A stretch of DNA of 40,515 nucleotides from a virus, in the IMG/VR virus record IMGVR_UViG_3300035670_000526, positions 1-40,515 of that record. One strand, written 5' to 3'. Numbering within the stretch: the first letter of the stretch is position 1; each line of letters begins with the position of its first letter. The notes beneath the pieces are model-generated. The model was given only the letters and a program-made list of their open reading frames with translations. It was not told the origin of the DNA and searched no databases. Positions 12,564-22,472 of this stretch are shown here, piece by piece. A program made the position numbers and the translations under genes.

Positions 12564-12700
12564 TTTTTCGCTGTCCTTTCAATTAGTTCGATGAGTCTAT
12601 TCCTAAGTCGGTCGTGGTCTTGGCACTCAATCAAAGCGGCTAGCACTTCGTCGCGAAATTGGTCGAGGCTCATTTGCGTTTCGTCGTCTTTAGTCGTCAT
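12560..12700 (-). CDS. 46-residue helical protein
   Basis: The product is MTTKDDETQMSLDQFRDEVL followed by a charged helix ending IERTAKK. The ATG at 12700 has GGAGGG upstream, and this ribosome site lies inside the 55-bp direct repeat at 12702-12756. The stop overlaps the HTH gene's ATG. Function unknown. Confidence 0.6.
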   Translation of the reverse strand: MTTKDDETQMSLDQFRDEVLAALIECQDHDRLRNRLIELIERTAKK

Positions 12701-12701
12701 C

Positions 12702-12756
12702 AATCAGCCCTCCGAAAACTTGCGATTTGTAACGTCACCGGCCCCGCTGGACTGTG
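12702..12756 (-). repeat. 55-bp direct repeat, copy 1, downstream of the PP-loop gene
   Basis: This copy is about 80 percent identical (44 of 55 bases by eye) to 13593-13647, including an unbroken 16-base core around GTAACGTCACCGG. The far copy encodes the last residues of the loader-like gene (AGPVTLQIASFRKAD). Here the same residues are encoded but lie after the PP-loop stop and are not attached to a gene. The repeat also carries the ribosome site of the next gene. Confidence 0.8.
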
Positions 12757-12757
12757 C

Positions 12758-13591
12758 TTATACCCCGCACATCCCATCGCATTCATCCAAAAACGAAAAA
12801 ACTTGCTGACCCTTTTCGATGTCGTTACGGAAGTCGATCTGGTCCAGCGGTTTGCATGACTTGTGCAGAAATGGCGTGCTTTCCATGTCGTCGCAATTTG
12901 CCTTTGATGCCTGTAGTTCTTTTTCAAATTGCACTGCCCTAGCAAATTCGTCCGGCTCTTCTGTTTGCAAGCGCCGCCATTCTTGATTTCGATGGAACGG
13001 GCAATAAACACAAGACGATCGCGGCGGTTCTGGATATCCGTTTTTAACCATCCAGTCAATGCAGTCCGCCCGCCTCATTCGCATCTCGACAAGCGGCCAC
13101 CGATTAACTACCCACGCATCGCGGCTTAGCTTCATTCGCTGCATCTCGTCGTATGAAATGCCGATGAGGCTTGTGACTGTTGTTTCCGTTTGCCCTCGCT
13201 TGATTCCGCACCGACTGCGAAGCTCTTTAATGATCGGCTTGATTTTGTAGTCCGCGGTGCAGATTCGAAACTGTATTTTTCCAGAGTCGCCGTCTGGTGA
13301 CAAAGTAAAAACAGGAATGCTAGTCCGCGAATACCTGCGGCCGTCTTTGGCTGTTTTAATCCTTAAGGCGTCGTCGCTAAGCTTTCCATTCGTGACTCGG
13401 TAAACCGGAAAGCTCAATTGTGACTCTAGCCAATCCAGCCACTTATAAACGCTTGCCGGCTCGTCTTGTGTATCTGCGAAAATCGCAAAATCAACCTTGA
13501 TGCCAAGCAGTTCCCCGCGGCTCGCCATTAGTGCCATCGTTGACGATTGCACGCCGGCGCCAAGGCTGATTACGTTATATTTAGTTTCCAC
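12758..13591 (-). CDS. PP-loop ATPase, PAPS reductase-like phage protein
   Basis: The 277-residue protein opens with a beta strand and the PP-loop SLGAGVQSS (residues ~9-17), which binds ATP pyrophosphate. FADTQDE (~39-45) follows, typical of adenine-nucleotide alpha-hydrolases. A cysteine cluster CVYCPFHRNQEW occurs near residues 192-203. Phage members of this family are common and are often called PAPS reductases or DndC-like, but the true substrate is usually unknown. The GTG start overlaps the upstream TAG. The gene is flanked by a 55-bp direct repeat, suggesting cassette insertion. A sulfur or base modification role is possible. Confidence 0.8.
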   Translation of the reverse strand: METKYNVISLGAGVQSSTMALMASRGELLGIKVDFAIFADTQDEPASVYKWLDWLESQLSFPVYRVTNGKLSDDALRIKTAKDGRRYSRTSIPVFTLSPDGDSGKIQFRICTADYKIKPIIKELRSRCGIKRGQTETTVTSLIGISYDEMQRMKLSRDAWVVNRWPLVEMRMRRADCIDWMVKNGYPEPPRSSCVYCPFHRNQEWRRLQTEEPDEFARAVQFEKELQASKANCDDMESTPFLHKSCKPLDQIDFRNDIEKGQQVFSFLDECDGMCGV

Positions 13592-14223
13592 TAGTCCGCC
13601 TTTCTAAAAGATGCTATCTGTAACGTCACCGGACCCGCTGGCCTGTGTTCAATTGCTGTACGTCGTTCCGCGTTGCTGCACTCGATGCGGACGATTGGAT
13701 CACGCATCTGGCCGCCCACGCAACGCTTCTCCCCGAGGCCCTGAAGCGGCCTGCAAGCCTCTGGCGATAGCGTGTCACCCATCGCTGCGTAAGTCTTCAA
13801 AAACTCATGCCGTGCCCACTTTTCGCCTTCTGCACCATCAAGCCGGCTTAGGAAATTCGGCCAGCCTCCCAAGTTGCGAATCGTCGCGTTGATCCGCTGA
13901 TCGCCGAAGTCCGGCCAAACGTACGAGCCTTTCGGGATCGCCTTTAGGACGTCGCCCCAAGCGTCTACGGCTTTGGTGTCGCTGTCGACGGTCACGCCGG
14001 CAAGCTCTCGAATCTTTGCCGGTGACGGCATTCCATCGACTTCCCTCAAGGCTCGGACGAAGCCGTTCTGTAGTTGGTCGTCGGTTAGGTCGGACAACGC
14101 CAAAGCGTAGCCTAGGACCATGTTTTCATTGGGGTCAATCCCCTTCGTCGCCATTAAGGCGTTCAACAGCGTCAAAAATCGCTTCGACTTTTCCGCTTGA
14201 AAAGACTCGTTCGAAAACGTCAT
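13591..14223 (-). CDS. Replication-associated protein, possibly helicase loader-like
   Basis: The 210-residue protein begins MTFSNESFQAEKSKRFLTLLN, has a helical N-terminal domain, then WGDVLKAIPKGSYVWPDFGD and LGGWPNFLSRLDGAEGEKWA. This W...GxY...LGGW pattern recurs in phage proteins found beside O-like initiators. I infer a primosome or helicase-loader role from position. The start at 14223 has AAGGAG ten bases upstream and overlaps the initiator gene by 89 bases; an in-frame ATG at 14154 gives less overlap. The last 15 residues lie in the repeat shared with 12702-12756. Confidence 0.6.
   Translation of the reverse strand: MTFSNESFQAEKSKRFLTLLNALMATKGIDPNENMVLGYALALSDLTDDQLQNGFVRALREVDGMPSPAKIRELAGVTVDSDTKAVDAWGDVLKAIPKGSYVWPDFGDQRINATIRNLGGWPNFLSRLDGAEGEKWARHEFLKTYAAMGDTLSPEACRPLQGLGEKRCVGGQMRDPIVRIECSNAERRTAIEHRPAGPVTLQIASFRKAD
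13593..13647 (-). repeat. 55-bp direct repeat, copy 2, upstream of the PP-loop gene
   Basis: This copy encodes the C-terminus of the loader-like protein and carries the ribosome site (AAAGGCGG) for the PP-loop gene. See copy 1 at 12702-12756. Confidence 0.8.
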
Positions 14224-15094
14224 TTCGGTTTTTCTCCTTGAGTTGTCCAAAGGTCATCGGTAGAGGCGACGGCTTACGCTCCGTCGTCAGTGTTCGGTCA
14301 TCCTGCCACGCCGCCGGGTCATCCTCCCATCGGCCTTGATTTAGCCACGTCGCCGGCATGCAAGAATACTCACCCTTGCCGCGATCGCTTGCGGCGTATT
14401 CAGCCGCCTTGCCAATGATCGTTTCGGAGTCCGCAGCCTTGATTGCCTTTTGCCAAGCGGCATAGGCCTGTTTTTTGCCTAGCCGCCTGCGGGTCGGGTA
14501 AGCGTCCCAGAATCTTTGGAAGTCTGGCGAATACTCGGCACGTGCGAATTTTTCGCACTGCGCTGTAGTAGGATCTTCTTTTAGCTCTTCTATTCTCTTT
14601 TCTTCTCTTCTTTCACTCTTCTCTTCTCTTCTCTTCTCTGGTGTTGTTTCTAGCGTTACTTTTGTAACGGTCGGAGCGTTACAATTGCGTGTCAAATCTG
14701 TTACATCAGCGTTACCGTTTTCGTACGGATTCATTACACCTGCGTTTTTCTCGGTGTTTTTGCGATATTTGCCTACCCGCTTAGCGTTTTGTGCTCGAGC
14801 TTTTGCAGTTTCCCCGTTGTGATTCTCAAACTTTGAAACTGTGATTGTTCCGTTACTCTCGAGCATCCAACCGACTTCAATCATCAATTCTGTAAAGTTA
14901 GTAACGCCAACGTCACGATTTAGTAACGTTTTTGTAACGCTCGGAGCGTTACCGTCTGTCGTGTGAATGTCGAACCACGCCCACACCCTAAGAAGCTTTC
15001 CGACCACTGCGTCGGGGTCAATCTTTAGCCGGTCGGCAATGATTAGCACTTCCGGCTTATTGCTGGTTGCTATTTCAAACTTGATCCACGACAT
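14135..15094 (-). CDS. O-like phage replication initiator
   Basis: The 319-residue protein has a winged-helix-type N-terminal domain (residues 1-110: WIKFEIATSNKPEVLIIADRL, ... VGWMLESNGTITVSKFENHN). A low-complexity charged linker follows (REEKSERREEKRIEELKED), and then a C-terminal domain with FWDAYPTRRRLGKKQAYAAW and ATWLNQGRWEDD, common in phage replication proteins of the lambda O/DnaD-like type. Its gene contains clustered GTAACG iterons and palindromes, as lambda O contains its origin. The start follows the structured leader at 15106-15195. A weak ribosome site (GAGC) precedes the ATG. Confidence 0.75.
   Translation of the reverse strand: MSWIKFEIATSNKPEVLIIADRLKIDPDAVVGKLLRVWAWFDIHTTDGNAPSVTKTLLNRDVGVTNFTELMIEVGWMLESNGTITVSKFENHNGETAKARAQNAKRVGKYRKNTEKNAGVMNPYENGNADVTDLTRNCNAPTVTKVTLETTPEKRREEKSERREEKRIEELKEDPTTAQCEKFARAEYSPDFQRFWDAYPTRRRLGKKQAYAAWQKAIKAADSETIIGKAAEYAASDRGKGEYSCMPATWLNQGRWEDDPAAWQDDRTLTTERKPSPLPMTFGQLKEKNRNDVFERVFSSGKVEAIFDAVERLNGDEGD
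14575..14639 (-). repeat. Homopurine tract inside the initiator gene
   Basis: About 65 bases are almost purely C/T on the plus strand, built from short TCTTC/TTCTC units. They are purine on the coding strand and encode the Glu/Arg/Lys-rich linker. Next to the iteron cluster it could be an easily deformed element of the origin, or simply coding for a linker. Confidence 0.6.
14652..14952. other. Origin-like iteron cluster (GTAACG / CGTTAC)
   Basis: Within 300 bases there are about nine copies of GTAACG or its complement CGTTAC, at 14654, 14664, 14677, 14710, 14851, 14901, 14923, 14934 and 14947. Two 19-bp inverted repeats occur: a perfect one, GTAACGCTCGGAGCGTTAC (14934-14952), and one with a single arm mismatch (14664-14682). 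Both are in the same context (preceded by TTT). Initiators of the O type bind iterons in their own genes, so I infer a replication origin here. Part of the repetition is explained by the encoded peptide NAPxVTK, but the other hexamers fall outside it. Confidence 0.65.
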
Positions 15095-15105: not shown

Positions 15106-15195
15106 AAAAAATCCACCGAGCGGGAAGGCGTCACGGGCCGCGCAGATAAGCGCAGAATCCCCGCTCGGTGGTTTGGTTTGTTAAAGCCCGTGACG
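15106..15195 (-). promoter_or_regulatory. Structured leader with interleaved stems and terminator before the initiator gene
   Basis: In RNA order the minus strand holds four parts. Element 1 (15186-15195) can pair with element 3 (15129-15138) over 10 bp, GCCCGTGACG with CGTCACGGGC. Element 2 (15160-15171) can pair with element 4 (15113-15124) over 12 bp, CCCGCTCGGTGG with CCACCGAGCGGG. Element 4 is followed by six U (15106-15111) and, 11 bases later, by the initiator ATG. A small hairpin (GCGC/GCGC) sits between 2 and 3. Elements 2+4 form an intrinsic terminator; 1+3 interlocks with it. The topology matches the leader at 22334-22435. Confidence 0.75.
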
Positions 15196-15211
15196 GCTTG
15201 TCAATGCCTAA

Positions 15212-15217
15212 ATTCTA
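15212..15217 (-). promoter_or_regulatory. Probable -10 element upstream of the initiator leader
   Basis: TAGAAT on the minus strand would start a transcript near 15205, placing element 1 of the leader at the RNA 5' end, as at 22.4 kb. No good -35 lies 16-18 bases upstream, so an activator may be needed. The TTGACA at 15199-15204 is not usable as its -35 because it lies downstream. Confidence 0.45.
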
Positions 15218-21857: not shown

Positions 21858-21997
21858 TCTGTCACCCTCGTTCGGTTGTGATACTTCCGCCATTCTCGCC
21901 ATCGTGCACGCGTGTCTCGATCGTCCCGCGGCTGTGACATTATCGCCGCGATCGCACAAAATAGAGCGATTGCGGCTAGGGTTATGCTGTGGATCAT
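21854..21997 (-). CDS. 47-residue membrane protein
   Basis: The ATG overlaps the upstream stop and the TGA overlaps the acetyltransferase ATG. The N-terminus is hydrophobic (MIHSITLAAIALFCAIAAIM) and the C-terminus strongly basic (DRDTRARWREWRKYHNRTR), the pattern of an N-out single-span protein with a cytoplasmic tail. It could be a small antagonist of host membrane functions. No family known. Confidence 0.6.
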   Translation of the reverse strand: MIHSITLAAIALFCAIAAIMSQPRDDRDTRARWREWRKYHNRTRVTE

Positions 21998-22332
21998 TTC
22001 TTTTGTCCGTTTTGCATCTTGTGGAATTGGTTGTAAATCCCTGAGTACGTGCGGCCAAGTTGCTTCGCCGTTTCGTTAATTATCTGCCGCTTTTCCTTTT
22101 CCGTCGCCAGTTGATTTGAGTAGCGAAAAAAAGCTCGCCGCAAAATCTCAAGCGACTCGCCTTTATAATACTTGCCGCCCCTGCGGCTCTTTGGCTGTGG
22201 CTCTACCTCTGCTTGCGGCTTGTCAACAATGTCGATCTGCCAATCGTCAACAAGTGCGATCGCGTCGACCAATCGCAGCCGCTCGTTTGGTGTTAGTGTT
22301 AGTGCGGCGGATAGTACGTCTGAAAGCTTCAT
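21994..22332 (-). CDS. Putative DNA-binding regulator, first gene of its transcript, 112 residues
   Basis: This protein starts MKLSDVLSAALTLTPNERLR and has a basic segment (KSRRGGKYYKGES) and a C-terminal helix-turn-helix-like region (EKRQIINETAKQLGRTYSGIYNQFHKM). It is the first gene of the transcript from the 22444-22472 promoter and follows the interleaved-stem leader. A regulator of the following genes is plausible. An in-frame upstream ATG exists, but the ATG at 22332 has AAGG upstream and follows the leader. Confidence 0.6.
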   Translation of the reverse strand: MKLSDVLSAALTLTPNERLRLVDAIALVDDWQIDIVDKPQAEVEPQPKSRRGGKYYKGESLEILRRAFFRYSNQLATEKEKRQIINETAKQLGRTYSGIYNQFHKMQNGQKK

Positions 22333-22333
22333 T

Positions 22334-22435
22334 GTGTTGTGCCTTAAAAAGCGCCGGCGGGTTTGCACAACACACTTTGCCAAGAAATGGCGAGAGGTTC
22401 CCGCCGGCGCTCTGTTTTGTCTTTCGGTGTTGTGC
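22334..22435 (-). promoter_or_regulatory. Structured leader with interleaved stems and terminator before the 22332 gene
   Basis: In RNA order the elements are: element 1, GCACAACAC (22427-22435); element 2, AGCGCCGGCGGG (22400-22411); element 3, GTGTTGTGC (22365-22373); element 4, CCCGCCGGCGCT (22350-22361); then a U-run (22346-22350); then GCACAACAC again (22334-22342); then AATG. Elements 2 and 4 pair over 12 bp as a terminator. Element 3 can pair with 1 or with the third copy over the start region. A small hairpin (GCCA/TGGC) sits between 2 and 3. The topology matches the leader at 15.1 kb. Confidence 0.78.
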
Positions 22436-22443
22436 TGTCGGAA

Positions 22444-22472
22444 AAGATAGACGAGGGTAATCACCGCGTCAA
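22444..22472 (-). promoter_or_regulatory. Sigma70-type promoter with degenerate operator
   Basis: The minus-strand -35 is TTGACG (22467-22472) and the -10 is TATCTT (22444-22449), with a 17-base spacer. The spacer holds GGTGATTACC, one mismatch from the core GGTAATTACC of the 8.5 kb operator, in the same register. The predicted start (~22437) puts the leader at the RNA 5' end. Confidence 0.75.

Follow-up and report, generated by a model that had tools for sequence, protein, structure and literature searches.

The stretch of viral DNA analysed here, an IMG/VR window of 40,515 bases, encodes a replication initiation protein on its minus strand. Just upstream of this gene, on the same strand, lies a leader (15195-15106, read directly from the letters) in which four elements are interleaved; element 1 is complementary to element 3, and element 2 to element 4. 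A second minus-strand leader at 22.4 kb (22435-22350) repeats the layout with a 1:3 helix of 9 bp and a 2:4 helix of 12 bp, and stands before a gene for a small protein; the recognisable genes around the initiator leader are also on the minus strand. The features are collected in Table 1, where the two are called the initiator leader and the 22.4-kb leader. Elsewhere in the window, minus-strand open reading frames at 12700-12750 and 13591-13641 have near-identical peptide ends (PAGPVTLQIASFR.AD), which suggests that a segment of ~50 nt has been duplicated between these two places.

Table 1. Coordinates of the leaders and their neighbouring genes in the window, and of leaders in related contigs.
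Feature	Contig	Position	Strand	Remarks
Replication initiation protein, 319 aa	window	14135-15094	-	PHROG 2509 1.4e-44, PHROG 9474 1.2e-43
Initiator leader, candidate -10 box TAGAAT, weak -35	window	15212-15217	-	16 nt upstream of element 1; best promoter-like site p=0.15
Initiator leader, element 1	window	15195-15186	-	CGTCACGGGC; near predicted leader 5' end; 10 perfect pairs with element 3; covaries in homologues
Initiator leader, spacer L1	window	15185-15172	-	TTTAACAAACCAAA; A-rich, unpaired
Initiator leader, element 2	window	15171-15160	-	CCACCGAGCGGG; 5' arm of putative terminator; 12 perfect pairs with element 4
Initiator leader, L2	window	15159-15139	-	GATTCTGCGCTTATCTGCGCG; predicted 4-bp hairpin GCGC-UUAUCU-GCGC (DNA GCGC-TTATCT-GCGC)
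Initiator leader, element 3	window	15138-15129	-	GCCCGTGACG; in loop of 2:4 hairpin; pairs with element 1
Initiator leader, L3	window	15128-15125	-	CCTT
Initiator leader, element 4	window	15124-15113	-	CCCGCTCGGTGG; 3' arm of putative terminator
Initiator leader, U-tract	window	15111-15106	-	six U after A15112 (ATTTTTT); anchor of the family scan
22.4-kb leader, sigma-70-type promoter TTGACG-17-TATCTT	window	22444-22472	-	identical in relative G011
22.4-kb leader, element 1	window	22427-22435	-	exact coordinates from sequence
22.4-kb leader, element 2	window	22400-22411	-	exact coordinates from sequence
22.4-kb leader, element 3	window	22365-22373	-	exact coordinates from sequence
22.4-kb leader, element 4	window	22350-22361	-	short T run after
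22.4-kb leader, element 5, second copy of element 1	window	22333-22342	-	GCACAACACA; directly before ATG; also complementary to element 3
Small protein MKLSDVL..., 112 aa	window	21994-22332	-	behind 22.4-kb leader; no Pfam match, weak PHROG 2610
G011 initiator leader	L103	16165-16244		same layout, different sequence
G011 leader before 22.4-kb-protein homologue	L103	10019-10104		same layout, different sequence
Leaders before helicase and HNH gene	L021	3361-3446, 5913-5996		same layout, different sequences
Leader before endonuclease VII gene	L106	11957-12047		layout kept, different sequence; U-tract poor

The original prediction had described the initiator leader in some detail, and its anatomy was confirmed at exact coordinates: both helices are perfect (1:3 of 10 bp, 2:4 of 12 bp), a hairpin lies between elements 2 and 3, six U follow element 4, and the initiator ATG at 15094 begins 11 nt past the last T and 18 nt past element 4. 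The gene behind the leader was rightly called a replication initiator, with matches to PHROG replication-initiation families at ~1e-44. The minus-strand leader has a predicted minimum free energy of -45.2 kcal/mol (z = -4.8; 0 of 200 shuffles equally stable), and the loop of its terminator-like hairpin is long, at 35 nt. Across the border of element 1 and L1, the stretch GGGCTTTAACAAA (15176-15188, minus strand) resembles an rrn boxA (GCTCTTTAACA); the other leaders lack it, and the likeness is probably chance.

The interleaved layout is rare by chance—at an arm sum of at least 17 it occurs in only two places on both strands of the 40-kb window, the initiator leader (sum 22) and the 22.4-kb leader (sum 21), and among 100 locally dinucleotide-shuffled windows none reached 22 and four reached 21. 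Related viral contigs totalling 3.1 Mb contain 2,159 distinct sites with a U-tract followed by a start codon; 17 of these have the layout at a score of at least 45, against 0.0 per shuffle, and 20 have it at a score of at least 40, against 1.0 per shuffle; a few of these matches are near-duplicates, such as L020/L021. The layout is ~10-fold commoner at U-tracts with a start codon after them (18/2240) than at those without (5/6506; p=2e-7), in a contig set enriched for phages related via terminase, helicase and methylase genes, so that these rates are not those of phages at large. Three matches with high layout scores but no U-tract (L025, L244, L255) were treated as chance or coding. A weak match in phage lambda (L269, 44773), with a 1:3 helix of 6 bp, is at chance level and was not counted; its U-tract lies downstream of gene Q, about where terminator tR' is expected.

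The terminase gene of the window has relatives 92-95% identical in many viral contigs, and the useful relatives came from terminase, methylase and helicase queries, the initiator and the 112-aa protein yielding few. The most informative is G011 (IMGVR_UViG_3300042309_000653, contig L103), which carries a homologue of the 112-aa protein behind the same kind of leader as well as an initiator that shares its C-terminus with that of the window; it was the sole relative matched when the conserved promoter of the 22.4-kb leader was searched for as a DNA pattern. Its homologue of the 112-aa protein (L103 10124-10300) is only 59 aa long and keeps the N-terminal part. Its initiator (L103 16262-17473; terminase 95% identical) contains an HNH domain and differs from the window's initiator in its N-terminal domain, the C-terminus alone being shared; the difference reads as a modular exchange. 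The scan used on the window, when run on G011 and further contigs, gave the L103, L021 and L106 leaders of Table 1.

Applied to 1.8 Mb, a tolerant layout descriptor found further initiator leaders (L127, L136, L168) and others besides. Altogether, some 20 leaders of the same design and of largely unrelated sequence stand before other phage DNA-handling genes. The prediction that the two leaders of the window differ in sequence and share a layout therefore holds, and many other phage leaders do likewise. The genes behind them encode initiators (the window, G011, L127, L136, L168), HNH or endonuclease VII proteins (L021, L106, L077, L181), a helicase (L021), a DUF3560 protein (L080) and small proteins of no known function; the gene behind the leader in L140 is initiator-like by eye but has no family match. 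A loop-loop version with the same element order precedes homologous initiators in MW202710 (Manatee Spring phage) and L317. The whole leader is enclosed by a further 11-bp inverted repeat in L136 (3600-3740) and in L168 (8680-8810), with one arm (ATGATTGCGTC) at the promoter side and the other (GACGCAATCAT) ending at the start codon; the repeat is not kept in L127. Taken together, the set looks like a recurrent, putative RNA switch of phage DNA-handling genes.

The leader is no constant companion of the initiator, and replication gating, if any, occurs in some lineages only. Upstream of 45 of 61 distinct initiators the DNA is coding right up to the initiator, with no leader; 3 of the remaining 16 upstreams have the layout by an automatic criterion, and L274 and L275 were added by hand. 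A stricter automatic scan found the layout in 4 of 68 initiator upstreams—a lower bound, given that L168, L274, L275 and L279 were missed. In L282, L284, L289, L299 and L301 (~1150-1200), homologous initiators stand directly behind a plain terminator hairpin and U-tract with no 1:3 partner, and a helicase homologue on a Planctomycetota MAG contig has no such leader in the stretch examined. The original proposal that the element gates replication stands only in part: a helix 2:4 of terminator form and a U-tract do lie just before the initiator start codon. As a statement of function it was too narrow, because the layout also precedes HNH and endonuclease VII, helicase and small-protein genes, and most initiator homologues have no leader.

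Comparison of homologous leaders shows that pairing is kept while sequence changes; the sets contain 2-4 sequences each, with structures assigned by the analyst from the sequences. The initiator leader can be aligned with its G011 counterpart and with both L021 leaders. In helix 1:3 of this set, 40 of 40 cells are paired and 6 of 10 pairs have changed on both sides; only 0-1 of 500 shuffles of the 3' letters match this covariation, and sliding the partner abolishes the pairing. In helix 2:4, 5 of the 8 outer pairs have changed on both sides, once these helices are put in register by hand where the automatic alignment slips. Between the 22.4-kb leader and that of its G011 homologue, the promoter is identical and 6 of 9 pairs of 1:3 have been replaced on both sides. 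A third set (L274, L275, L279), before homologous initiators, has all 48 cells of 1:3 and 2:4 paired with 8 both-sided changes; here the spacer is nearly invariant (CAACAACGCGGG-AACCGC) while the helices change together, and an extra hairpin lies in L1, not L2. Covariation in homologous phages had been proposed as the check on the claim that the fold rather than the sequence is conserved, with loss of one pairing in close relatives named in advance as its refutation. No such loss occurred—both pairings persist through compensatory changes, and the claim extends well beyond two leaders.

The 15 tabulated leaders share further anatomy. Stem 1:3 spans 7-13 bp and stem 2:4 8-18 bp, L1 is 12-26 nt and L3 0-8 nt long, and most have the hairpin in L2. 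The A-richness of L1 is marked across 18 leaders (161/333 A, 48%, versus 600/2160, 28%, in the flanks; p=3e-13). A sense sigma-70-like site lies upstream of 13 of the 15 leaders at the scan threshold, the initiator leader being one of the two exceptions; its promoter is not secure, with only a weak site where related leaders have better ones. From the end of the best -10 box to element 1 is ~4-20 nt, a distance that counts in 3 nt of element 1 itself; a transcript start near element 1 is therefore expected. The sequence traits of an attenuator leader are present, with a GC-rich stem and then a U-tract between promoter and start codon, the promoter-like site being secure for the 22.4-kb leader and most relatives and weak for the initiator leader. 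In sequence, helix 2:4 and the U-tract behind it look like an intrinsic terminator placed right in front of the start codon.

Energy models of the growing transcript give the same order of events in all 15 leaders: exposure of element 3 lets helix 1:3 form, with 92-100% of its pairs, and 2:4 replaces it late, when no more than the final 0-6 nt of element 4 have yet to emerge. Part of the RNA is still under the polymerase during its passage over the U-tract, and the model therefore puts the decision at the terminator itself; from this folding order and polymerase cover, we propose that element 1 captures element 3 and favours read-through. Against this, helix 2:4 is the global minimum in 15 of 15 leaders under energy models that exclude pseudoknots; by default the leader could terminate transcription, or fold into a pseudoknot that contains the two helices together.

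We judge it somewhat better than an even chance that the leader is a cis-acting transcription attenuator, ~100 nt long and independent of any leader peptide. Transcription would start close to element 1; element 3, on emerging, would pair with element 1 as an antiterminator and so capture the would-be loop of terminator hairpin 2:4. If the capture held while the polymerase crossed the U-tract, the gene starting 11 nt further on would be transcribed; with element 1 unavailable or displaced, 2:4 would form and transcription would stop, leaving a short structured RNA. We infer termination in vivo, with 1:3 as the ON state and element 1 under some control. The long terminator loop and weak promoter of the initiator leader, and the poor U-tract of L106, count against this reading. 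The 22.4-kb leader adds a variation: element 5, which repeats element 1 just ahead of the start codon, has a 10-nt complement to element 3 (p=0.003), as is also seen in the leader of the G011 homologue (p=0.013). This arrangement fits the capture logic, since element 3, once released by element 1, could cover the start region. Element 5 is clear in these two homologous leaders only, suggestive in L127 (p=0.11) and L181 (p=0.16), and absent from the initiator leader and from most others.

The same architecture can be read in other ways. The main rival is that both helices coexist in a stable H-type pseudoknot, the A-rich L1 spanning stacked stems, that serves as an RNA landing site for the initiator or another protein and so controls translation or stability. 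The short L3 and the length of the A-rich L1 are as expected for stacked stems bridged by L1, and the T4 gp32 leader is a precedent (PMC3014915); we nevertheless consider this combined reading unlikely, because the U-tract found behind element 4 of nearly every leader would be superfluous for a protein site, the stems are not conserved in sequence, L1 length is uncorrelated with stem length among the 15 leaders, and the downstream genes are too diverse for autoregulation by a single protein. That the leaders stand before initiators and nucleases, and that plain terminator hairpins with no 1:3 lie directly before other initiators (such as L282, L284, L299 and L301), would suit an unregulated, partly efficient terminator—an insulator or damper before potentially harmful DNA-acting genes, with 1:3 merely setting the level of read-through. 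A plain damper could do without element 1, whereas compensatory changes have preserved 1:3, and we regard this reading as quite unlikely.

A terminated or processed leader might instead act in trans on nascent copies, as P4 CI RNA does, with its element 3 or 1 binding the nascent partner, blocking 1:3 and provoking termination; the outcome would be sequence-specific self-immunity. Stem sequences differ between leaders of one genome, and complementarity of elements 1 and 3 is at most 5 nt between non-homologous leaders against at least 7 nt within a leader, as though leaders were kept orthogonal; elements 1, 3 and 5 also resemble P4 seqA, seqB and seqC (PMC4825925). With element 5 confined to the few leaders named above, no match for P4 itself in the layout scan, and no sign of processing or lysogeny, the trans reading appears very unlikely. 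Least probable, to the point of being barely credible, is a DNA-level element in which the inverted repeats are operators, origin repeats or recombination sites: inverted repeats do adjoin the initiator gene, and two leaders are flanked by the extra 11-bp repeat, but the layout has a fixed coding-strand polarity (promoter upstream, A-rich L1, short L3, U-tract after element 4, start downstream), also precedes non-replication genes, and has stems that are not conserved, unlike protein-binding sites. Ribosome-mediated attenuation by a leader peptide was rejected, there being no ATG in the core of the initiator leader and element 1 lying close to the predicted transcription start in most leaders. 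Control by a pT181-like antisense RNA was looked for and is unsupported—antisense promoter-like sites occur at just 3 of 15 leaders, are weak, and are absent from both leaders of the window, in a scan for promoters of the usual type.

A recurrent RNA architecture of this kind is missed by sequence-based RNA families because it is mainly the pairing that is conserved. The genes behind the leaders commit a phage to replicating or cutting DNA; should the attenuator mechanism be true, the leaders would give phage genes a protein-free or minimally assisted timing device. A descriptor of the layout (element 1, A-rich spacer, element 2, hairpin, element 3, short gap, element 4, U-tract, start) can be used to search other genomes. 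A broader view, which we offer as doubtful, is that they represent a widespread class of phage RNA switch defined by topology, in which the 5' end of the message captures its own terminator loop while stems diverge freely, possibly with orthogonal leaders whose short RNAs are specific self-immunity signals for replication and nuclease genes.

No Rfam family (4227 searched) matches the window at the gathering score; at permissive E only sub-threshold matches appear, among them microRNA precursor models that score far under their cut-offs, and the loci of five relatives give none at E<=1. No published description of the layout was found in the literature searched, which lay largely outside subscription journals. 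Several known systems are nonetheless close. Plasmid initiator mRNAs (pT181 repC, pIP501 repR) have an untranslated leader with alternative pairings, one of which is a terminator before the gene (PMC5703833). There a counter-transcribed antisense RNA drives the switch, whereas the phage leaders have no convincing antisense promoter. The element order also differs: unlike in the pT181 leader, the terminator 2:4 and the competitor 1:3 of the phage leaders are interleaved and share no strand.

As proposed for the phage leaders, RNA pairing and premature termination control replication genes in P4 CI RNA and P1-type C4 RNA (PMC4825925). A P4-type trait, one sequence with complements both upstream and downstream, is present through elements 1 and 5 in the 22.4-kb leader and its G011 counterpart, is as uncertain in L127 and L181 as element 5 itself, and is absent from the initiator leader; the P4 genome has no layout match, and the leaders no Rfam match. 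In the fluoride riboswitch, long-range pairing formed during transcription competes with an intrinsic terminator, as proposed here (PMC11077080), but the phage leaders have no conserved aptamer sequence and no match in Rfam. The T4 gene 32 pseudoknot and the leaders of T4-type homing endonucleases likewise lie upstream of replication or endonuclease genes (PMC3014915); they act on translation and are not described as interleaved with a terminator arm. Because defining features of each system are missing or at most putative here, we have not filed the leaders under any of them. Most likely they are a variant of transcription-attenuator leaders, a known kind.
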